Source: a virus. Taken from it: a DNA stretch of 31,253 nt. Position numbers and translations under genes: made by a program. Positions within the stretch are counted from its first letter, which is position 1; the number at the start of each line of letters is the position of its first letter. The stretch is taken from positions 1 to 31,253 of the IMG/VR virus record IMGVR_UViG_3300022187_000132. One strand, 5' to 3'. Below the pieces are notes generated by a model, which saw only the letters and a program-made list of their open reading frames with translations, had not been told where the DNA came from and did no database searches. Shown here one piece after another: positions 3,247 to 14,561 of the stretch.

Positions 3247-3456
3247 ATGAGTAAAGAAACAAACAAACCTAGTCCTAAGACTTATCTTATAACATCTGAA
3301 CAGTTAATGGATATTATGAGATACTTAATGACTAGACCATATGGTGAAGTAGTTAAACTAATGAATGTGTTATCAGCCTTGAGTCCACTAGATCCAAGAA
3401 TTGGTGCAGATTTTATAAAAGCAAGCGAGGAAAAAAATGAAAGAAGAAAAGGATAA
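3247..3456 (+). CDS. Small hypothetical protein (69 aa)
   Basis: Unrecognised. It starts at ATG 3247 after a GGGAGGG Shine-Dalgarno (3237-3243), only a few bases away. A disordered Pro/Lys/Ser start is followed by a helical core (SEQLMDIMRYLMT, EVVKLMNVLSALSP) and a charged, basic end. It overlaps the next gene by 20 bases. Confidence 0.7.
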   Translation: MSKETNKPSPKTYLITSEQLMDIMRYLMTRPYGEVVKLMNVLSALSPLDPRIGADFIKASEEKNERRKG

Positions 3457-3694
3457 GATAAAAGAGCCAGACGATATATCAAAGTATACTGGTATATTAT
3501 TTGAATTGAAGATTGGTTTAAATAAAAACAATGCTGTTGTTATAGACTATGGTGGAAAGCCTGTTACTAAAATTAGAGAGGCACTTAAAGGCTATCCGTT
3601 TCATGCTAATCTTTGTGCATCAATAATTAATCATGCTAACACTATTGGTAAAAAACTACAAGAAGATGTTAAACAGATTATACAAAAAATTTAG
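3437..3694 (+). CDS. Hypothetical protein (85 aa)
   Basis: Unrecognised. A charged N-terminus (KEEKDKIKEPDD) precedes a compact alpha/beta body with TGILFELKIGLNK and NAVVIDYGGKPV, ending in a helix. The start lies inside the preceding gene, with AGCGAGGAA upstream as a probable ribosome binding site. It is the penultimate gene of the rightward operon. Confidence 0.65.
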   Translation: MKEEKDKIKEPDDISKYTGILFELKIGLNKNNAVVIDYGGKPVTKIREALKGYPFHANLCASIINHANTIGKKLQEDVKQIIQKI

Positions 3695-3861: not shown

Positions 3862-3889
3862 GGGGAGTCTTTATGGCTCCCCTTTTTTT
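3862..3889 (+). terminator. Intrinsic terminator of the rightward operon
   Basis: An 8-bp stem (3862-3869 with 3875-3882, GGGGAGTC and GGCTCCCC with one G-U pair) and the loop TTTAT are followed by seven T residues (3883-3889). It ends the rightward operon. The T-run reaches into the stop codon (3888-3890) of the convergent 786-aa gene, so this terminator lies between the late genes' end and their own terminator. Confidence 0.9.
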
Positions 3890-6248
3890 ATGCAAATAAT
3901 CTATCTGTTTGCTGTTTAGCTTTACTTAGTTTGATAGGCTTGCTTAATATATCTTTCTGTAATTTTTTAGGTAATTTCATTTTTATAATTTCATGTTTAT
4001 AACCTATGTCAGAACTTTTTTCTCTCATCTTATCAAAGTATTCTAATATATAAGAGTTGTAATTATTTATATCAGTACCACCACTAGGCATTACTGATGA
4101 TATTGGCATTTGTAAATTAATATCAGCAATATCCCATACTCCCGATAAAGAAGAATAGTTTGGTTGTGATTGTAATGCATTGTCTATTGGTGTATTAGGC
4201 ACTACCCACATATAATATTTTTTATCATTATCAATATCTGGATTATCCGCAATTAAATTATCTATTATACTTTCTCCAGATGCTCTACCTGTTTCAGTAA
4301 ATATAGTGGTATAATCGGGAAGTGTTACTGCAGGATTATCTGCTCTTTCTGGATCCTCAAATCTACCTGTAACTAAATCATTTATTGTATTAGCTAATAA
4401 ATTACCAGATACTTCACGTAATACAAATCCATCTCTTAATGCTCTTGTAGTTCTACGAGTTATACTTCTTGCATCTGATTCTTCTGTAGGTTCATTTAAA
4501 CCAACATCATCAAATTCTTTTAATTCACCTTTACCAGGAAGTTCAACTGTTTCTAGTTTTACATTATATTTATCTGCAATTTTTTCTAATTGTTTATATA
4601 CAATTTCATCATAAAATTTTTTCAAACCTTCCTTATCTTCCATAGGCTGACCTTCATATCTATCAAATTGTATTTGACCATTAGTTATACCTATACTATC
4701 TAAATCTTTTTCCACTGCTTTTTTTATCATAGCATTTAGTATTAACTCTACATACTTTTTAGATTCAGTTACTGGTAATGCTTCGTAACCTCTCAGATCT
4801 ACCTGTTTCTGTGCTTGTTCTTTTGTTTTATAAGAACCTTTAGTAACTAAAGTGTTTTTATCAAATACATAAAAGTTATTATCCATTAATCTAACTTCAG
4901 GCACACCACGTTCACTTGTTATATCTCTATCTGGATCTACAGAATACAAAACGTTATTATTATCTCTAGCAGCTATTAAACCTTCATCTTTAAGTTCTTG
5001 ATTAGATTTACCCTCAAGTATACTTACTGGTGTAGACCTAACAGCATAATTAGGATAATTTTTTTGTAAAAAATCTTGAGTAATATCTTTACCTTTTATT
5101 ATAACAAAATCGTCTTTTGTACCATATTTTTGTATATCTTGTATAGCATCAGATTGTATCTCATCTACGATAAAAGTATCTTCTAGTTGCCTAGATGCGT
5201 TTTTTAAAATTTTATCTTCATTACTTAATGCTGTCCCTTCGGCTTCTTTTTCATCTAATCTTTTTTCTACAGCATCAGCATTAAAGTATCCTGTTTGTGC
5301 TCTAGCATGGGCTATAGCATTCCTTGCATATTTTTCAGAAAAGTGTGCAGAATCAGCTGACCATTGTTTAGGCCCATCTACTTGAAAAACATATTGTTCT
5401 ACAGAAGATTTATATCCTTCCATAGTAGGAAGTTTAACATCACCTGCACCTAGTACTTCTCTAGTACTTTCACTAGCACGGGCCCTTTTACCCCCTGCAC
5501 CTCCAATTGAAAAAGCTGTAAAATCATATTGATCTTCTAAAGGTACTTCAACTACACTTAGTTTATCTGCAATATTTTTTTGCTCTACAAAATCTAATAA
5601 GTCTTGTTTAGTTATAGATTCATTACCTTGTAAATAATCTGATAAACCAAGGTAATCCATTTCTTCTTTAGTAGAATTACTCTGTACAATACTTTTCCAT
5701 TTACCTTTAGTAAATTTATTTTGTTTAGCATTTTTAATAGCGTCTACAGCACGAGAATAGAACTCTGGTTTATCACCCATAAGTGCCTGTGCTGTTTGCT
5801 TTTCTGTTTCTGTCAGTGTGCCAAATTCTACTTTGGGTTCTAATGCTTTTTGTGTTTGAGATTTAATATCTTCTTGCTTGGATAAGTTTTTTGAGATTTG
5901 TAATGCAGCTTCGGTAGCTACTTCGGTACCAAGGTTTGGCCCTTTATCTTCTGGAGGTTCTTGTTGTGGTTGGTTAGACTTCTGCTGATCTTGTACCATC
6001 GGTACATTAGTGTCATCATCATCACTACCACTAGACATATAATTAGGATTAACCATTGGCATAGCCTCTGGTTTAACCATAGTAGTATTTTTGTTTAAAC
6101 TTTCTAAAGTATTAAATGCACCTTTGCCATAAGTTGAAACAAACTTATTCATGCCCAACTTACCTAACTCTTTGGCTAGGTAAGGTGCAGCAAACCTACC
6201 TGCTGCTGTTATTATTGGAATAGCTGCAAGTGCGACTGGTGCGGGCAT
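3888..6248 (-). CDS. Large polyvalent-type phage protein (786 aa), probably ejected with DNA
   Basis: The N-terminus is hydrophobic and amphipathic (residues 1-35, Ala/Ile/Pro-rich), then comes a disordered Asp/Gln/Pro-rich linker (70-110). A core follows with motifs I recognise from large phage polyvalent proteins. These are a small domain KGKWKSIVQ...LGLSDYL (181-206), an AHF...NAIAHARA box (301-317), DEIQSD (362-367), and ITNGQIQFDRY (521-531) with YDEIVY just after. About 120 residues between DEIQSD and the later motifs form an insertion. The C-terminal third (about 590-786) is unassigned. The activity of this core domain is not established to my knowledge. The placement at the end of the late operon, beside structural genes, suggests a virion protein delivered into the host. 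Start ATG 6248; its stop codon overlaps the opposing terminator. Confidence 0.7.
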   Translation of the reverse strand: MPAPVALAAIPIITAAGRFAAPYLAKELGKLGMNKFVSTYGKGAFNTLESLNKNTTMVKPEAMPMVNPNYMSSGSDDDDTNVPMVQDQQKSNQPQQEPPEDKGPNLGTEVATEAALQISKNLSKQEDIKSQTQKALEPKVEFGTLTETEKQTAQALMGDKPEFYSRAVDAIKNAKQNKFTKGKWKSIVQSNSTKEEMDYLGLSDYLQGNESITKQDLLDFVEQKNIADKLSVVEVPLEDQYDFTAFSIGGAGGKRARASESTREVLGAGDVKLPTMEGYKSSVEQYVFQVDGPKQWSADSAHFSEKYARNAIAHARAQTGYFNADAVEKRLDEKEAEGTALSNEDKILKNASRQLEDTFIVDEIQSDAIQDIQKYGTKDDFVIIKGKDITQDFLQKNYPNYAVRSTPVSILEGKSNQELKDEGLIAARDNNNVLYSVDPDRDITSERGVPEVRLMDNNFYVFDKNTLVTKGSYKTKEQAQKQVDLRGYEALPVTESKKYVELILNAMIKKAVEKDLDSIGITNGQIQFDRYEGQPMEDKEGLKKFYDEIVYKQLEKIADKYNVKLETVELPGKGELKEFDDVGLNEPTEESDARSITRRTTRALRDGFVLREVSGNLLANTINDLVTGRFEDPERADNPAVTLPDYTTIFTETGRASGESIIDNLIADNPDIDNDKKYYMWVVPNTPIDNALQSQPNYSSLSGVWDIADINLQMPISSVMPSGGTDINNYNSYILEYFDKMREKSSDIGYKHEIIKMKLPKKLQKDILSKPIKLSKAKQQTDRLFA

Positions 6249-6254
6249 AGGTTA

Positions 6255-6587
6255 TTATGTACCTTTAGTATGTTTCTGTGATTTAGGTGGTGACTTTTTA
6301 GATCCACCTGGGCCTGCCCAGAACATCTTATCTGCCCAATAGGCAGCACTTTCTTTTCCTTTAGATATGTTCTTAGCATGTCTAGCTTTGAAACTTTTTC
6401 TAGCCTCATCACTATAGTTATGACCCATCTTCTGGTCACCGAATCTAATAATTTTAATATCCCCATCACCTTCTCTAACAGCAACAATACCTTTTTTAGT
6501 TGGGTGTCCTGGGGTTCTTTTAGGTTTATTTAAACCATCAAGATTATATCTATCTAGTTTTTTCTTTTCTGACTCTGTTAGTGCCAT
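6255..6587 (-). CDS. Small basic protein of the marine-phage KSFKARHAKN type (110 aa)
   Basis: A Lys/Gly-rich protein with a central beta-like piece (GDGDIKIIRFGDQKMG), then RKSFKARHAKNISKGK and a Trp-rich AAYWADKMFW segment, ending in a Pro/Lys tail. I recognise the KSFKARHAKNI...SAAYWA pattern as recurring in marine phage structural regions. The function is unknown; the charge suggests nucleic-acid binding or packaging inside the virion. The start is ATG 6587, five bases after the stop of the 46-aa gene, with AAGAAGG upstream (from 6601). Confidence 0.75.
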   Translation of the reverse strand: MALTESEKKKLDRYNLDGLNKPKRTPGHPTKKGIVAVREGDGDIKIIRFGDQKMGHNYSDEARKSFKARHAKNISKGKESAAYWADKMFWAGPGGSKKSPPKSQKHTKGT

Positions 6588-6589
6588 TA

Positions 6590-6730
6590 TTATACCTTCT
6601 TATTATTTTGTTTTAATTTTTTAAAATCTGCTTTTTCAATTTTCTTAGGGTCACCAGCGACTGATGCAATCTTTAGTTGATTAGCAGTTAATGTTTTGTT
6701 ATTTTTTTTAACTTTACTTTTGTAAGCCAT
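6590..6730 (-). CDS. 46-aa lysine-rich protein
   Basis: A short gene read in the gap between two larger ones. The product begins MAYKSKVKKNNK, has one helix (TANQLKIASVAG) and ends KLKQNNKKV; about a third of residues are Lys. The start overlaps the upstream stop (TAATG at 6728-6732), and the stop at 6590 lies two bases from the next gene's ATG. Its neighbours are likewise small, basic and unassigned, so it probably shares their role, perhaps virion DNA condensation; that is inference. Confidence 0.65.
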   Translation of the reverse strand: MAYKSKVKKNNKTLTANQLKIASVAGDPKKIEKADFKKLKQNNKKV

Positions 6731-6975
6731 TATACACTCCTATATTTTCTAACTTTACTAGCTATGTTTTTTGGTTGTTTAACAAATTGTTGTCCTGCTG
6801 ATTTGCCTTTTCTTTTAGCAGCTGTCGTTGCTGCATATTCCTGTGGGGAGAGAGCCTTAATTGCTTTAGATGGTAAATATCTTTCACCTGTTTGTGATGA
6901 AGGTTTACCAGACTTTGTTCTCCACTTTTGTTTGCCCCATGCCTTGAGTGATTTTTGTTCTTGTGTTAGTGCCAT
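6730..6975 (-). CDS. Small basic DUF5872-like protein (81 aa)
   Basis: A Lys/Arg/Ser/Gln-rich protein with the ordered features WGKQKWRTKSGKPSS, then GERYLPSKAIKALSPQEYAA and KRKGKSAGQQFVKQP. I recognise this layout from the family called DUF5872, seen in phage and large-virus genomes; the link is by eye. Its function is not known. ATG 6975 has AGGAG upstream (TAGGAGATAATATG). No Cys or His metal motif is seen. Confidence 0.75.
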   Translation of the reverse strand: MALTQEQKSLKAWGKQKWRTKSGKPSSQTGERYLPSKAIKALSPQEYAATTAAKRKGKSAGQQFVKQPKNIASKVRKYRSV

Positions 6976-6983
6976 ATTATCTC

Positions 6984-7325
6984 CTAGCTAAATTGCTTTG
7001 GTACATATTCTTCTGCAACATTTATACTGATATGGACTGAAGTGTTTGCACTAGCTAGTCCTCTTATCTTATCTGATTTTAATAACCAGAATCCTTCTGT
7101 TATTTGAATAAGACCATTAGGTTTTAATGTGGTTGCCTCTGCTATAGTATGATATGTAGTGTTTGCACTATCATACCAATCTAAACTGAATGTAACTGTA
7201 TTGCCAGATGTATTACTAATAAAAATACTTTTAATATTAGATTTATAGTTGGCAGGTACAGTATAAATATCTTGATTGCTTGTGGTTAAATCTAAACCGA
7301 CTGTTCTTTTTTTAGTTATTATCAT
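6984..7325 (-). CDS. Small beta-rich virion-type protein (113 aa)
   Basis: The protein is a succession of beta strands (DIYTVPAN, IKSIFISNTSGNTVTFSLDWYD, GLIQITEGFWLL), ending VHISINVAEEYVPKQ. Strand order resembles the 109-aa protein at 23979-24308 (N-T-x-x-x-x-V-T followed by a G-rich plateau and a GLASA element), so the two may share a fold. ATG 7325 comes one base after the upstream stop and is my choice; an ATG at 7337 in frame would add four residues and overlap the upstream gene by 11 bases. It is a likely tail or head accessory protein of unknown role. Confidence 0.7.
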   Translation of the reverse strand: MIITKKRTVGLDLTTSNQDIYTVPANYKSNIKSIFISNTSGNTVTFSLDWYDSANTTYHTIAEATTLKPNGLIQITEGFWLLKSDKIRGLASANTSVHISINVAEEYVPKQFS

Positions 7326-7326
7326 G

Positions 7327-8106
7327 TTAATATCCATCCTGTACTAATAATAAATCAAATGAAGCAGAAGCAGAAGAGTTAGAACTTGCCTTTCCAGAAA
7401 CATAGATATCTGACTTTTGAGGTATTACATTGATTGCATTAAAGATAACTGTTGTTTGACCACCTCTGACATCTAAAAATTGTTTTGTTTGAAACGCTGC
7501 GTTAGCAACACTATTATCTCTTTGTATAAATTTAAATTCCATTTCTTGATCTTTACCTGATGATATATTTATAGATAATAAATAACCAGTATAACCTGCA
7601 GGTATGGTATATAGTGTCATAAGTGTTTGACCGTTTCCTTCCGATATAGTTGCTGCTACATCCGAACCACCTGTATAGGTTACAGTAATTGTTCCTTCAT
7701 TATTTCCAGATGAACCTGCTGTTTCTACAGACATTCTAAATACTCTTAAAAAAGTTTGTGTAGTTGTAACCGTAGTTGTTCCATCCATATCAACTGTCTC
7801 TTCAGCCAAATTATAAGAACCATCCAAACCTTGTATTCTTAAAGTTCTAGCACCTGTTCCAGCTACATCGTCATTAGTATCATCACTTACTACATCAACA
7901 GTAACTGCCGAAGATTGCCAAGGATAGTTGTTTCCTGTTTCCCAAATAGTTTCAAAAGAACCTGAACCGATACTAGGATTATATCCAAATTTATTAATCA
8001 TAGAGTAACCAGGAACTTTACCTTGTTGCACCTCTAGATAAAAAGGTATTCCAGATTCACTACCACTAGAGGTAGTAATTAGCATTGGATAGTGGGTTAT
8101 ACTCAT
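7327..8106 (-). CDS. Beta-rich virion structural protein (259 aa)
   Basis: Ser/Thr/Gly-rich with repeated strands throughout, including TLRIQGLDGSYNLAEETVDM at 88-107 and TFLRVFRMSVETAG at 118-131. The C-terminal half (about 160-259) has a jelly-roll-like look. No cysteine, signal peptide or membrane segment is present. Proteins of this kind occur among the structural genes of marine podoviruses and are usually labelled virion protein. Its start overlaps the stop of the 60-aa gene (TAATG at 8104-8108). Position after the lysis block, with small basic proteins on both sides, gives no exact role. Confidence 0.7.
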   Translation of the reverse strand: MSITHYPMLITTSSGSESGIPFYLEVQQGKVPGYSMINKFGYNPSIGSGSFETIWETGNNYPWQSSAVTVDVVSDDTNDDVAGTGARTLRIQGLDGSYNLAEETVDMDGTTTVTTTQTFLRVFRMSVETAGSSGNNEGTITVTYTGGSDVAATISEGNGQTLMTLYTIPAGYTGYLLSINISSGKDQEMEFKFIQRDNSVANAAFQTKQFLDVRGGQTTVIFNAINVIPQKSDIYVSGKASSNSSASASFDLLLVQDGY

Positions 8107-9741: not shown

Positions 9742-10118
9742 TATTTTCTTTTAATTAAATCTGTTGCTTTAAGACCATAAACACTAGCTATGACACCTAC
9801 AAAAATTGTTTGATACCAAAAAGGTAACTGAGAAAAATACTCAAAGAACAATTGCATCTTTTCCATAGCTGCTGGATCATCTGAAAATACTGCCCACGCA
9901 AGGAGTACTATGGGAGCCGAGAGTAATAATAAAATAAACTCATCTTTCCAGTCTGAATTTCTAGACTCAAGTAGCTTACCTTGATACTCTGCCTCTCCAT
10001 TTGCCATCTTCTCTGCATGCCTCATTTGTGCATCAGACATTAGCATTTTAGTTTTCTGTCTATTTTGATATATATGGCTACCTGCTTTGAAAGCCATTCC
10101 TAATAAATTAAACCACAT
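9741..10118 (-). CDS. Holin candidate with two membrane segments (125 aa)
   Basis: Residues 1-55 form an amphipathic, polar helix region (SDAQMRHAEKMANGEAEYQG). Two hydrophobic segments follow at about 60-78 (FILLLLSAPIVLLAWAVF) and 99-117 (QTIFVGVIASVYGLK), ending in KRK. I recognise this WKDEF...YGLKATDL layout from marine phage proteins annotated as holin-like or of unknown function. It overlaps the amidase gene by 11 bases, the usual holin/endolysin pairing. It would make the inner-membrane lesion that releases the amidase; the role is inferred from topology and position. Confidence 0.7.
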   Translation of the reverse strand: MWFNLLGMAFKAGSHIYQNRQKTKMLMSDAQMRHAEKMANGEAEYQGKLLESRNSDWKDEFILLLLSAPIVLLAWAVFSDDPAAMEKMQLFFEYFSQLPFWYQTIFVGVIASVYGLKATDLIKRK

Positions 10119-10536
10119 TGTTTTCCTTTAACCATTTTGGCACATCAAATGATGGACATTCTTTTTTGTCATCAACTTGATAGTGACCTATTACTTTTTT
10201 TACTCTATAATCTGACATTAGTTTTTCTAATAATTCTTTTAAAGATTCAAATTGTCTTTCAGTAAAATTATTTTCCCAGCCCATATCTTTAGTACCACCT
10301 CCGACTAATGCCACACCTATTGATGTACCATTAACTGCTACTGCATGGGCCCCAACATAATTAATATCACGACCTTTATCAACATGACCATCCCTTCGTA
10401 TCACAAAGTGATAGCCTATTGTATCAAAGCCTCTATTCTTATGCCATTTTTTTATTTCATCTGCACCAATATCCATAGTATCTGGAGTTTGTGTGCAATG
10501 AATAACTATTGTATCTGTATCTTTTCTAATCTCCAT
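10108..10536 (-). CDS. N-acetylmuramoyl-L-alanine amidase (T7-lysozyme type endolysin)
   Basis: A 142-aa amidase_2 domain with the T7 lysozyme zinc and catalytic set: H13 (VIHCTQTP), Y42 (IGYHFVIRRDG), H118 (GHYQVDD), K125 and C127 (KKECPSFDV). H13, H118 and C127 should bind zinc; Y42 and K125 are catalytic. It cuts the amide bond between muramic acid and the stem peptide. No signal peptide is present, so release needs a holin, which the overlapping downstream gene may supply. I take ATG 10536 as start; a TTG at 10545 would add three residues (MIL) but has no better ribosome site. In T7 the same protein also inhibits the phage RNA polymerase; no such polymerase is visible here. Confidence 0.93.
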   Translation of the reverse strand: MEIRKDTDTIVIHCTQTPDTMDIGADEIKKWHKNRGFDTIGYHFVIRRDGHVDKGRDINYVGAHAVAVNGTSIGVALVGGGTKDMGWENNFTERQFESLKELLEKLMSDYRVKKVIGHYQVDDKKECPSFDVPKWLKENNVV

Positions 10537-10594
10537 AAGAATCAAATAGCCAATCTACGTATCTTTTCCATAGTTTTTTTATAAATCTTAACAT
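10526..10594 (-). CDS. Possible 22-aa basic/aromatic peptide
   Basis: Minus-strand ATG 10594 has GGAG seven bases upstream and opens a 22-codon frame (MLRFIKKLWKRYVDWLFDS plus three residues). It ends at TAG 10526, overlapping the amidase start. The peptide is amphipathic with Trp and Lys, like a small membrane peptide. Evidence is only the ribosome site and tight fit; it may be just a leader that couples translation to the amidase. Confidence 0.35.
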   Translation of the reverse strand: MLRFIKKLWKRYVDWLFDSYGD

Positions 10595-11039: not shown

Positions 11040-14000
11040 TTAATTCTTTCTTTCGAATAGACCTTTAATCTCTTCGAATGGTTCTTTTGGTTGTGAGTAT
11101 GTAGCTTTTTCAAAGTACACCCCATATTTTTTTGAAAGTTCTCTCATTTTTTTAGCAACAACATCTATTTCTTTTTTAGCTGTTTCTCTATTAATTAATC
11201 CTTTTCTATAATCATTTCTATATTTATTTATTTGTTCTTCAAAACCTTTTAATTTTCTTTTTAATTCATAAACTTTACCAGCTTTTAATTTATTTAATTC
11301 TGCTCTTTCAATTTTAAATCCAAGAGTTTGCATTAAAGATACTAACTCACTTTGATCAGCAGTGAATGGTGAATCTAATCCTTTTCTAGTTCTTTCTAAT
11401 TTTTCACTAGAGTATGATCCAGGTAAGAATGGTATGTTAGGAGTTAGTTTATCTAATACTGTATTAAGTCTTATAGGTAAATCTTCTTTAAACATACCTG
11501 TTTGACCTTTTATTTTTTCTGCTCTAAATAAATCATAACCTAACATAGGAAATAGTATTTCACCACCTAAACCAAATGATGGTTGAAATGGTGCAGGTAA
11601 TCCAGGGATCCCTGGTGAACCTAAATCTAATACATCACCACCTGGTACAAATCTTGTTAAGTCTGCATAATAAGATTTTTGCTCATCACCTATTTGTGGC
11701 ATAGGTAATTTAATATTTCTATATGGTAAGAATGGCATACCAAAAAAGCTACCTTGTTTTCTTTCTGGCATAACTGCTCTCTCAGCTTCTTCATCACCAC
11801 CACTAACAAGATCACCCATCTTATTTAAACCATAACCAAGCCCTGCATATTTTGCATACTTCCATGGTCTTACTATTGCAGTTTCTGCAAGTATAGGTAT
11901 AATTCTATATGTGTATGCTAAGAATGGAGTTACTGTATTTCTCATCCAGTTAATAGCAGGAGCATCAATATTGTAATCAATAAATGCTCTTCTAGCATCT
12001 AATGCAGCATCTGCATAACTAAATCCTTTAGCAATTCTATCTTGAAATACTGATAATCTAAATACTGCATCTTCAAACTGATAGAAGTTTGTAAGACTTG
12101 TTAGTATGTTTTTATTTTTAACATCATCAAAAATACCTCTAGCAGCATTAACAGAATTATTAAATGGATCTAAATCATCTGTAAAATTATAAGGAAATGA
12201 AGATCCTACTTTAATATTTTTTAATTCTTGATTTACAAATCCAGCATCAAATACACCATACTTAGTAGCAGCTTCTACTAATTTAGATTTTTGAATAGTA
12301 GCTTTACCATTTTTAGTAATTGCTTTTCCATGTGTAGTTAAAGCAGTCCAAGCAGGTTTTAGATATTTAAAATCTGCATCAATTAAATCATGTAACACAA
12401 AGTTACTCATAACATTGTTTACATGAACTGTTGGATTCCAAGCAGTTTTAGATAGCTTCCAATATGAATTTAAATTTCTATAACCTTTATAAAAAGTATT
12501 AGACTCTGCTCTTACATATCTATTAGCAGCAACTAAATTTTTGTATACTTCTTCTGGTACATATTTACCTGCTAATGCACCATATCTTTGTTTGCTATCA
12601 GTTTTACTGATAACAGTTGTTGGCATTTTTCTGTAATTAATTCTTTCAGCAGCAGGTATATTTCTTATACCGTCATAAACATAATCTTGTTTAGCTATGT
12701 TTTGATAAAATCTATATTGACTTATAGTTTCTGCAAAACCTCTACCTGTTTCAGCTATAGCAAATGATGCATCTTCTATTTCACCTAAGCCTACTCTTTG
12801 TGGTTTAGTATACTCCCATCTTATTTGTACATCATCTGTCTTTTTTAATTTTTTAAATTCTTTTTGTGATGTGCCTAATAATTCCCAACCTCTATGACCT
12901 TTAATTAATTTCTTTTTACCTTCTACTTGTCTAAATAAACCAGTCTTTTTATCTGCATCTAATGAAGTAGTTGTATATGCTTTTTGATTTTTATATATTT
13001 TATTGTATTCTTCTTTACTTACTGTAAGTGTAGCACCTCTGTTTCTTAGTTCTTCTCCAAATGGTCTATCTTCTAACTTACCTTTATATGATCTTTTTAA
13101 ATATATATTTTTATTTCTTTGGAATGTCTGTGGGGATATTAATCCCATATCCACGTACTCTTGTGCAATTTCTGTAATTAAGTCTCTAGATTCTTTATTT
13201 AATTTATTTAACGTGCCTGGCTTAAGACCATACTTAATATCACCTTCAAGCATATTAAATAATATCTTTTGTTCATCTGGCTGTAATTGTAATTTAATTT
13301 TATTAGCAAGAAAAGAAAATCTCATGCCAATATGATTAGCAAAACCTTGTGCTTCACCTTTTAATTTTTTAAAATCTTTAGGTAATTTATAACCATCAAT
13401 AAAGTTTCTACCTAAAATATCACCAATACTTTCAGTAACTTCAATTGCTTCTTCTTCTTTACCAAAAGTTCTTTGTACTTTAATTCTTTTAATACCGCCT
13501 AAACCTACAGCACCTGCAACAGCACTAGTAAATGCAACTCCTAATTTAGTTCCAATAGGTGCTTCCTCATCTGTAAATGCATAACCTGTTACACCACCTG
13601 TTAATGCACCCCCTGCTTCTGCACCATATTCACCATTAGTAATATAATTTAATGCAGGTTTACCAAACTTTTGCTCATATGGTTTTAATATATTTTCTCT
13701 AAAAAATAATCTAGGGCCTCTTAATAATTTACTTTTATCTTGAGGTAAATCTTCTAAATCTTCTATTTTTACATCTGTAATTTTTTTTCTAGCAAAAGCA
13801 TCTCTATCTTTTTTACCTGCTTCATTAGTTAATTTAACTTTTTGATATTGTGCATCTGCTTGTGATTTAATACTAGGTGCATCTAAACCAGGAATACCTA
13901 AGGATTCTCTAGTAAATACTTTTTCACCTTTTATTTTTTTACCAACACCTGCTATGATAGGAGATACAATAGTACCACCAATAGCACTAGCTGCAGCTTG

Positions 14001-14561
14001 TTTTGCTCTAGTATCTAATAAAGATTCTTCATCTACATAACCTAATCCACCTGCAATACCAGAAGATACAAAACCATACTTAGCAGCTTTATATAATGTT
14101 CTAGCTTTTGTTACAGGTATTAACCATCCTGCAGGATCTAATAATGCACTACCAAAATATGCAGCAGCAACCATATAGTTAGTACTACCATCTGGGTCTT
14201 GCATATATTCATATAGCTTCTTTTGATCTGCTTTCATTTGCTCAGCATCAATTCCAGCTATTTGTTTTACACCTCTATAAGTATCTGTAAAACCTAATTT
14301 AGTAGCAAACTTTACTTTTTCCCAAAGATCTTGATCATCATCAATATCTTCTTTTTGTACATTTGGTTTTAAATCATCAAACATTCCTGGTTTATCTATA
14401 TCAGAAAAATCTATTTTTTCACCAGGATTACCTTGTGTAGTTAATTTAAATTTTTGTTGTTGATTTTTAGGCAATAGGTCACTAAACATTCCCTGATTAA
14501 TTTCAATATTATCAGGTAGCTTAGGGCCTTTAGCCTTTATATCATCAAACAATCCAGCCAT
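11040..14561 (-). CDS. Giant internal virion / DNA-ejection protein (1173 aa)
   Basis: By far the largest gene. The N-terminus repeats a short motif three times (GLFDDI at 3-8, GMFSDL at 24-29, GMFDDL at 59-64) in a disordered acidic region. Hydrophobic or glycine-rich stretches follow at about 128-150, 163-176 and 188-206, and again near 300-355 (GGALTGGVTGYAF, LGVAFTSAVAGAVGLGG). The middle is Lys- and Tyr-rich and helical; a membrane-like piece occurs near residue 890 (NTVTPFLAYTYRIIPILAETA). The C-terminus is a charged helix. Size, membrane-active segments and place between structural and lysis genes match internal core proteins such as T7 gp16, but I see no transglycosylase motif. Some features resemble large polyvalent phage proteins. 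ATG 14561. Confidence 0.65.
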   Translation of the reverse strand: MAGLFDDIKAKGPKLPDNIEINQGMFSDLLPKNQQQKFKLTTQGNPGEKIDFSDIDKPGMFDDLKPNVQKEDIDDDQDLWEKVKFATKLGFTDTYRGVKQIAGIDAEQMKADQKKLYEYMQDPDGSTNYMVAAAYFGSALLDPAGWLIPVTKARTLYKAAKYGFVSSGIAGGLGYVDEESLLDTRAKQAAASAIGGTIVSPIIAGVGKKIKGEKVFTRESLGIPGLDAPSIKSQADAQYQKVKLTNEAGKKDRDAFARKKITDVKIEDLEDLPQDKSKLLRGPRLFFRENILKPYEQKFGKPALNYITNGEYGAEAGGALTGGVTGYAFTDEEAPIGTKLGVAFTSAVAGAVGLGGIKRIKVQRTFGKEEEAIEVTESIGDILGRNFIDGYKLPKDFKKLKGEAQGFANHIGMRFSFLANKIKLQLQPDEQKILFNMLEGDIKYGLKPGTLNKLNKESRDLITEIAQEYVDMGLISPQTFQRNKNIYLKRSYKGKLEDRPFGEELRNRGATLTVSKEEYNKIYKNQKAYTTTSLDADKKTGLFRQVEGKKKLIKGHRGWELLGTSQKEFKKLKKTDDVQIRWEYTKPQRVGLGEIEDASFAIAETGRGFAETISQYRFYQNIAKQDYVYDGIRNIPAAERINYRKMPTTVISKTDSKQRYGALAGKYVPEEVYKNLVAANRYVRAESNTFYKGYRNLNSYWKLSKTAWNPTVHVNNVMSNFVLHDLIDADFKYLKPAWTALTTHGKAITKNGKATIQKSKLVEAATKYGVFDAGFVNQELKNIKVGSSFPYNFTDDLDPFNNSVNAARGIFDDVKNKNILTSLTNFYQFEDAVFRLSVFQDRIAKGFSYADAALDARRAFIDYNIDAPAINWMRNTVTPFLAYTYRIIPILAETAIVRPWKYAKYAGLGYGLNKMGDLVSGGDEEAERAVMPERKQGSFFGMPFLPYRNIKLPMPQIGDEQKSYYADLTRFVPGGDVLDLGSPGIPGLPAPFQPSFGLGGEILFPMLGYDLFRAEKIKGQTGMFKEDLPIRLNTVLDKLTPNIPFLPGSYSSEKLERTRKGLDSPFTADQSELVSLMQTLGFKIERAELNKLKAGKVYELKRKLKGFEEQINKYRNDYRKGLINRETAKKEIDVVAKKMRELSKKYGVYFEKATYSQPKEPFEEIKGLFERKN

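Follow-up and report, generated by a model that had tools for sequence, protein, structure and literature searches.

Polyvalent proteins, a class described together with 40 uncharacterized domains by Iyer et al. 2017 (PMC5512222), are predicted to be injected and include GNAT and ParB-like domains. They are recognized by the presence of at least two domains of different activity, by domains shared with other members of the class, and by a late-gene neighborhood, the phage forms lying near late or virion genes. The gene analyzed here encodes a 786-residue protein that carries an EIQSD/GxxQxxRY module also present in polyvalent proteins, some of the large ones having LPD22 or GGDEF domains in addition. 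The protein shares this domain with the class and is encoded in an operon that runs down from scaffold-like and major head proteins, but it contains one module and a helical pre-domain rather than two different activities. In the polyvalent proteins the variety lies within one long chain, whereas in this gene a single module stands behind a constant N terminus and the variety is found between phages; the GNAT and ParB-like domains reported for the class occupy the same slot in relatives of the gene, one of which (L326) has two domains.

Three other systems invite comparison. (i) The gp34 protein of the Pelagibacter phage HTVC028P (954 aa, MW273921) has, like the protein described here, the pre-domain, an EMQSD sequence, an RY motif, and the module ending, but it differs in its N-terminal half, has KGELA in place of TGxxQ, and comes from a different phage group. 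(ii) Polymorphic toxins similarly combine a constant N terminus with exchangeable C-terminal effector cores. They differ in that the C-terminal tail of the present gene is also constant and toxic activity is not known for it. It is also the last gene on its strand, and the gene that follows it on the opposite strand is common to backbones with other cores and is not an adjacent immunity gene. (iii) Hypervariable regions are known in other pelagiphages, one of them including an internal virion protein (PMC10504331), so the novelty of this locus lies in its cassette form and its domain and not in variability itself.

The window is the whole stretch of 31,253 nucleotides of IMG/VR record IMGVR_UViG_3300022187_000132. 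It comes from a pelagiphage of the HMO-2011 type, whose major head protein and a tail structure protein share 84% and 80% identity, respectively, with those of the isolate HTVC033P. The late genes are on the minus strand, beginning with the scaffold-like and head proteins at 31–29 kb and ending with the 786-aa ORF (6248..3888, ATG to TAA). The initial annotation had placed this ORF at the end of the late operon, and it is the last minus-strand gene before it converges with plus-strand genes of replication type (a Cas4-like exonuclease and a metallophosphoesterase). Relatives were found at a total of 37 viral loci, and the position of the gene is conserved: the order is 216-aa, 60-aa, 81-aa, and then the 786-aa-type gene, wherever the contig extends that far, and the gene converges with the same plus-strand genes as in the window. 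A few relatives have no recognizable 60-aa or 81-aa gene, and the closest relatives gain a 110-aa gene. The isolate HTVC033P does not have the EIQSD gene, which is therefore not essential. The neighbors of the slot are as follows.

3437..3694, plus strand: 85-aa gene, the convergent neighbor that marks the other edge of the slot
6255..6587, minus strand: 110-aa gene directly upstream, matching phrog_7595 and, more weakly, phrog_220 (minor head protein and DNA pilot); found only in the closest relatives of the window
6730..6975, minus strand: 81-aa gene matching phrog_14910, a conserved neighbor that marks the slot

Two other parts of the window, 6588–6729 (between the 110-aa and 81-aa genes) and 7100–8100 (the 259-aa/117-aa region), are also variable; both differ in L008 though the neighbors there are 90–100% identical. 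Another late gene (11040–14561, minus strand) encodes a protein of 1173 residues with three N-terminal copies of a short motif (GLFDDIKAKGP, GMFSDLLPKN, and GMFDDLKPN), repeats in its N-terminal linker that may be docking or loading motifs. The only named relatives of this protein are Helicobacter and environmental phage proteins, at 22%.

The length of 786 residues and the motif positions given in the initial annotation are correct (AHF at 301–303, AHAR at 313–316, DEIQSD at 362–367, and ITNGQIQFDRY at 521–531), and the hydrophobic N terminus and acidic linker that it described are both seen in the sequence. The protein has the following layout.

3888..6248, minus strand: the whole 786-aa protein, a constant N-terminal segment followed by the EIQSD/GxxQxxRY module with two insertions and a constant tail
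6036..6248, minus strand: constant N-terminal segment (codons 1–71), hydrophobic and amphipathic, with TAxGRFAxPYLxKELxKxGxNKFxxxYG; retained when the remainder is exchanged
5841..6035, minus strand: linker (72–136), acidic and Gln/Pro-rich (about 72–104 by sequence), ending in KSQTQKAL and differing among relatives
5544..5840, minus strand: helical pre-domain (137–235), KWKS..KEEMDYLGLSDYLQ..ITKQDLLDFV, with conserved columns and helices in the model; it accompanies the module in canonical copies too
5301..5345, minus strand: HF...AHAR (302–316), with an invariant R316 that sits on a core strand in the model
5148..5165, minus strand: DEIQSD (362–367), placed at the end of a central strand; D362, E363, Q365, and S366 are invariant in the family
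4779..5126, minus strand: insertion between the motifs (codons 375–490), hypervariable and swapped independently of the rest
4656..4688, minus strand: ITNGQIQFDRY (521–531), a strand and then a helix in the model; G524, R530, and Y531 are invariant
4605..4628, minus strand: GLKKFYDE (541–548), where a long helix begins; Y546 is invariant in the family
3993..4538, minus strand: second insertion (about 571–752), between the last two core strands, with 14–20% identity between alleles of close phages
3891..3992, minus strand: constant C-terminal tail (753–786), IIKMKLPKKLQKDILSKPIKLSKAKQQTDRLFA, 82–100% identical between alleles in close pairs

A QTxxL-like motif is present three times in the protein, near residues 131, 151, and 780 (SQTQKAL, KQTAQAL, and QQTDRLF); the 47 genes of the window contain eight loose matches, including these three.

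The initial annotation made its case for an enzyme depend on the retention of the motif residues in relatives. In an alignment of 25 relatives with identities down to about 37%, His302, Ala315, Arg316, Gln318, Asp362, Glu363, Gln365, Ser366, Gly524, Arg530, and Tyr531 are invariant, whereas Asp367 varies (Ser or Gln in some relatives) and Gln527 is His in one. The Glu, Gln, and Ser of DEIQSD are also present in the canonical copies, and the conservation of the motifs, as judged from these alignments, is not due to chance. Pfam gave no match for the protein or its relatives, and NCBIfam gave none for the protein. Some relatives match a single PHROG, phrog_7348, a 2564-aa profile labelled "endolysin," with E values down to 3e-6. 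Taken at its word, this label would make the protein a cell-wall enzyme, and 48 of 66 wider relatives have in this place a 192-aa protein that is kin to the amidase-domain protein gp35 of HTVC033P. However, the match has strength only at about positions 1900–1970 of the profile, which are the polyvalent module itself; no lysozyme or amidase model matches the 786-aa protein; and a separate amidase is already encoded in the window (10108–10545). Since the label comes from a single polyvalent profile, matched in its EIQSD module, it was rejected as a guide to function, and a role as an endolysin is extremely improbable.

The wider distribution of the module was obtained by searches that used one motif at a time. 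A DNA pattern for WTTGxxQxxRY alone retrieved at least about 80 viral loci; among the matches listed, 77 ORFs had enough upstream sequence, and E[IVLM]QS was found upstream in 67 of these, as compared with a chance of about 1.4% per ORF. Cellular genomes searched for the EEIQSD motif alone gave at least 80 loci, and [TPN]GxxxxxR[YF] follows downstream in 66 of the 80 listed, 54 of them with the Gln (the chance of the form with Gln is 0.04%). In view of the variants in the cellular loci, the motif is better written [TPN]GxxQxxR[YF]. The module-bearing viral ORFs among the matches listed have 357–4747 residues (median 1807, partial ORFs included), and the full module in them comprises PGGxNYRE, AHxR, EEIQSDWHQ, WTTGxQQxxRYDLS, GGEGMKxFYDK, and ITPxMRxSVxxGQPLF. 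Plasmid copies were also found, one of them inside a protein annotated as LPD23. The statement in the initial annotation that the domain belongs to very large polyvalent phage proteins is thus borne out in both viral and cellular proteins, and the module is, on sequence grounds, a real, widespread, and strongly conserved domain. The Pfam LPD models do not cover the module in the proteins scanned; in these, no Pfam or NCBIfam model lies over it, and a literature search for the EIQSD motif returned no paper that names it. The statement that the domain stands almost alone is true of the 786-aa protein, but this is not peculiar to it, since single-copy ORFs of about 560–750 residues exist (L102, L106, L118, and L125). 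Similarly, the insertion of 120 residues between the key motifs is real, with an inter-motif spacing of 153 residues near the long end of the range in the canonical viral set (51–201, median 105), but it is not unique. In one module-bearing ORF (L117:1151-2296 and upstream), a LAGLIDADG/intein-like region lies just 5′ of the module.

Structures were predicted for a compact canonical copy of the module (pLDDT 91.2, pTM 0.83) and for residues 137–786 of the window protein (pLDDT 79.9, pTM 0.71). The first half of the modelled core consists of three strands (NYRE/EQYVFQ, AHxR, and EIQSD), the insertion, a helix, and a strand (SIGIT); the second half consists of a helix (GQIQFDRY), a long helix (FYDE), a strand, the second insertion, a strand, and a helix. 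In both models the paired motifs are placed at the tips of neighboring core strands, as they would be in the active site that the initial annotation proposed. There is a hint in this strand and helix order, with both key motifs ending adjacent central strands, of the order in GNATs. When the canonical model was compared with the PDB by Foldseek, the top matches were SSAT, Eis2, and AtaT-type acetyltransferases (best E value 2.5e-3, probability up to 0.84). The window model also drew many GNAT-fold matches, all of them non-significant, and neither model had a fold match in the PDB at E ≤ 1e-3. Because the TM-scores are very low (0.1–0.2 of the query), it is the topology and the recurrence of the matches that support the GNAT reading. 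When the module was compared with a profile of 38 aligned GNAT sequences, helix 3 and strand 5 aligned in register; the score was 22–24, as against 17.5 or less for shuffled columns, but the probability was only 10–22%. If the fold has been read correctly, Tyr546 would stand in place of the tyrosine at the start of helix 4 in GNATs, and a true GNAT domain takes the place of the module in one relative (L322). In contrast, the classic Q/RxxGxG/A acetyl-CoA loop of GNATs is absent before helix 3, where VPxxPFKxxW or LPxxESKKxVEL is found instead; large insertions occur at the position of this loop and between the final pair of strands; EIQS and GxxQxxRY are the invariant sequences of the module; and no match to the superfamily is significant. 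A search of the window with PF00583 found nothing, and a GNAT profile did not match the window protein. From the models, we consider a GNAT-like fold for the module somewhat more probable than not, and no membership of the superfamily is claimed. Among other candidates, an ADP-ribosyltransferase, raised by the polyvalent context, found no hint in the models or fold searches, and PDB sequence matches to glutathione transferase, NAD-binding, and aldehyde dehydrogenase proteins were non-significant. Neither A3 nor A5 gave a match when used as a profile against the PDB.

Phages that are nearly identical in the flanks (about 97–98% at the DNA level) have the first 70–225 or so codons and the last codons of the gene in common, and differ in the middle, which may be another EIQSD allele, the same core with only the insert swapped, or a true GNAT domain. 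L016 and L017, which are contigs of two different metagenomes, have cores that are 96–100% identical to each other and flanks about 98% identical to those of the window. The first 136 residues of L016 are 97% identical to those of the window protein and the last 34 residues of both are 94% identical to it, whereas the identity falls to 24% in residues 236–382, 12% in residues 383–488 (the insert), and 14% in residues 571–752. L010 and L008 match the window up to codon 374/377 and again from codon 491 (95% for L010; 95% and 89% for L008), and nothing aligns in codons 378–490, although L008 differs further down too. The pattern in these two indicates that the insertion between the motifs is a swapped unit by itself. 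On the tree of the cores, clades A and B are separated by one change, as compared with nine on the tree of the flanking genes. Comparison of these contigs shows that the core, and the insertion alone, have been exchanged at one locus between near-identical phages, and the gene is, by its sequence relationships, a recombination or cassette slot, a feature absent from the initial annotation. All of the relatives at this locus are metagenomic contigs, which can be chimeric, and it could be supposed that the differing cores are assembly chimeras of two co-occurring phages, particularly for L322 and L326, each of which is a single observation. However, the A allele is present on the window backbone in four further contigs (L001–L004), the B allele was recovered from two metagenomes (L016 and L017), the reading frames are open across every junction, and the nine allele changes are distributed on the flank tree; artifacts of assembly are a very unlikely source of the exchange.

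A query with the N-terminal 63 residues found three proteins with other cores, L321, L322, and L326. L322 has flanks about 97% identical to those of the window and DNA homology that extends to codon 71 and resumes at codon 777, the part between being unrelated; its N-terminal segment, which also begins L321 and L326, is 94% identical in amino acid sequence to that of the window protein, and about the last 10 codons are retained even with the GNAT core. The middle of L322, common to all three, aligns with 80 of the 86 columns of a GNAT profile at an HH probability of 88.7% (shuffles at most 1.1), although no GNAT match was reported by Pfam. L326 contains, together with the GNAT-like domain, an extra region with a ParB-like GHEGRHRA motif (a weak match to Pfam ParB_N, E value 0.053). 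Besides the 192-aa protein, the last late gene of the 66 wider relatives encodes the EIQSD protein (10 relatives), a 183-aa unknown (four), or the N terminus with GNAT (one). The 183-aa protein (MADIYKQTANMFGMDEYTSAYRTKP...FADQSY) occupies the slot in L348, L359, L366, and L400.

Three unrelated slot proteins (L331–L410) have similar C-terminal tails, QQTDRLFA, EQTDNLLKNK, and EQMDSLQ, that conform to Q[TM][DN]xL; among the proteins of the window, this tail is found only in the 786-aa protein (expected, 0.035). That the tail could be a loading peptide is a weak idea; it may only mark the edge of recombination, because the DNA that encodes it in the GNAT-like form is homologous.

Our best reading of the gene is a polymorphic effector, probably delivered by the virion, with a GNAT-like transferase core. 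In the mechanism that we propose, the conserved Glu, Gln, Ser, Arg, and Tyr would line a cleft between the two central strands of an α/β GNAT-like fold in the models, and these polar residues, judged by the fold and their conservation, may form the active site of an enzyme that transfers acyl or other groups. The two swapped insertions may shape the recognition of the target; in GNATs, the equivalent positions lie near the substrate. The protein would be made late, packaged through its constant N terminus, which may serve in loading or targeting, and injected with the DNA, and its diversification may reflect an arms race with the targets or defenses of the host, both suggestions being drawn from the genomic context and the biology of polyvalent proteins. 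Delivery with the DNA is plausible by analogy, given the polyvalent association and the context of the module-bearing gp34 of HTVC028P, which lies between gp35 ("internal protein A") and gp33 ("internal virion protein").

The same context would suit a structural or ejection-apparatus protein, that is, a domain of the internal core that serves as a scaffold or in binding, without catalysis, and in which variation reflects neutral drift or the matching of partners. T7-like phages keep their internal virion proteins at a place comparable to that of HTVC028P gp34, and the late-operon position and the conserved hydrophobic N terminus of the gene agree with such a role. We regard it as unlikely, since HTVC033P lacks the gene and the slot may be occupied instead by a peptidoglycan hydrolase-like protein, a GNAT, or a ParB-like domain, or by none of these. 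Furthermore, invariant polar residues within so divergent a domain are more readily explained by an active or ligand site than by packing, and the neighboring genes are 95–100% identical where the identity of the core is only 14–24%. Slightly less unlikely is a late intracellular factor that is not packaged, acting for example in superinfection exclusion or interference with competing phages and diversified by competition among them, as might be expected of an accessory gene that is last among the late genes and highly polymorphic within one phage type. Against this, the copy in HTVC028P sits among internal virion genes, and elsewhere the module is found mostly in giant proteins of polyvalent type that are predicted to be injected (PMC5512222).

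The reading that we prefer, a slot for host-directed effectors with constant ends and exchangeable polyvalent-protein cores, here a single EIQSD/GxxQxxRY module acting as a GNAT-like transferase delivered by the virion, has in our judgment about an even chance of being correct as a whole. A more far-reaching form can be put forward only tentatively: the abundant pelagiphages of the ocean would have a true polymorphic-effector locus, in which a virion-loading N terminus is recombined with a series of injected enzymes (a GNAT-like transferase with interchangeable target inserts, a GNAT, and a ParB-like domain with a GNAT), and EIQSD would define a new enzyme family in hundreds of giant proteins of phages and mobile elements.

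The EIQSD/GxxQxxRY module is widespread in such giant proteins yet uncatalogued, and the lone PHROG that contains it is labelled "endolysin," a label that will mislead the annotation of proteins matching only the EIQSD part of phrog_7348. Here the module has little beside it in a protein of manageable size, and the natural swaps of its core and insertion come near to a natural domain-swap experiment; because they are on nearly the same phage background, function and target specificity can be tested. Few bacterial groups on Earth are as abundant as SAR11. If the constant N terminus is a loading signal, the locus would provide, in SAR11 phages, a simple model of how phages choose the proteins that they inject.
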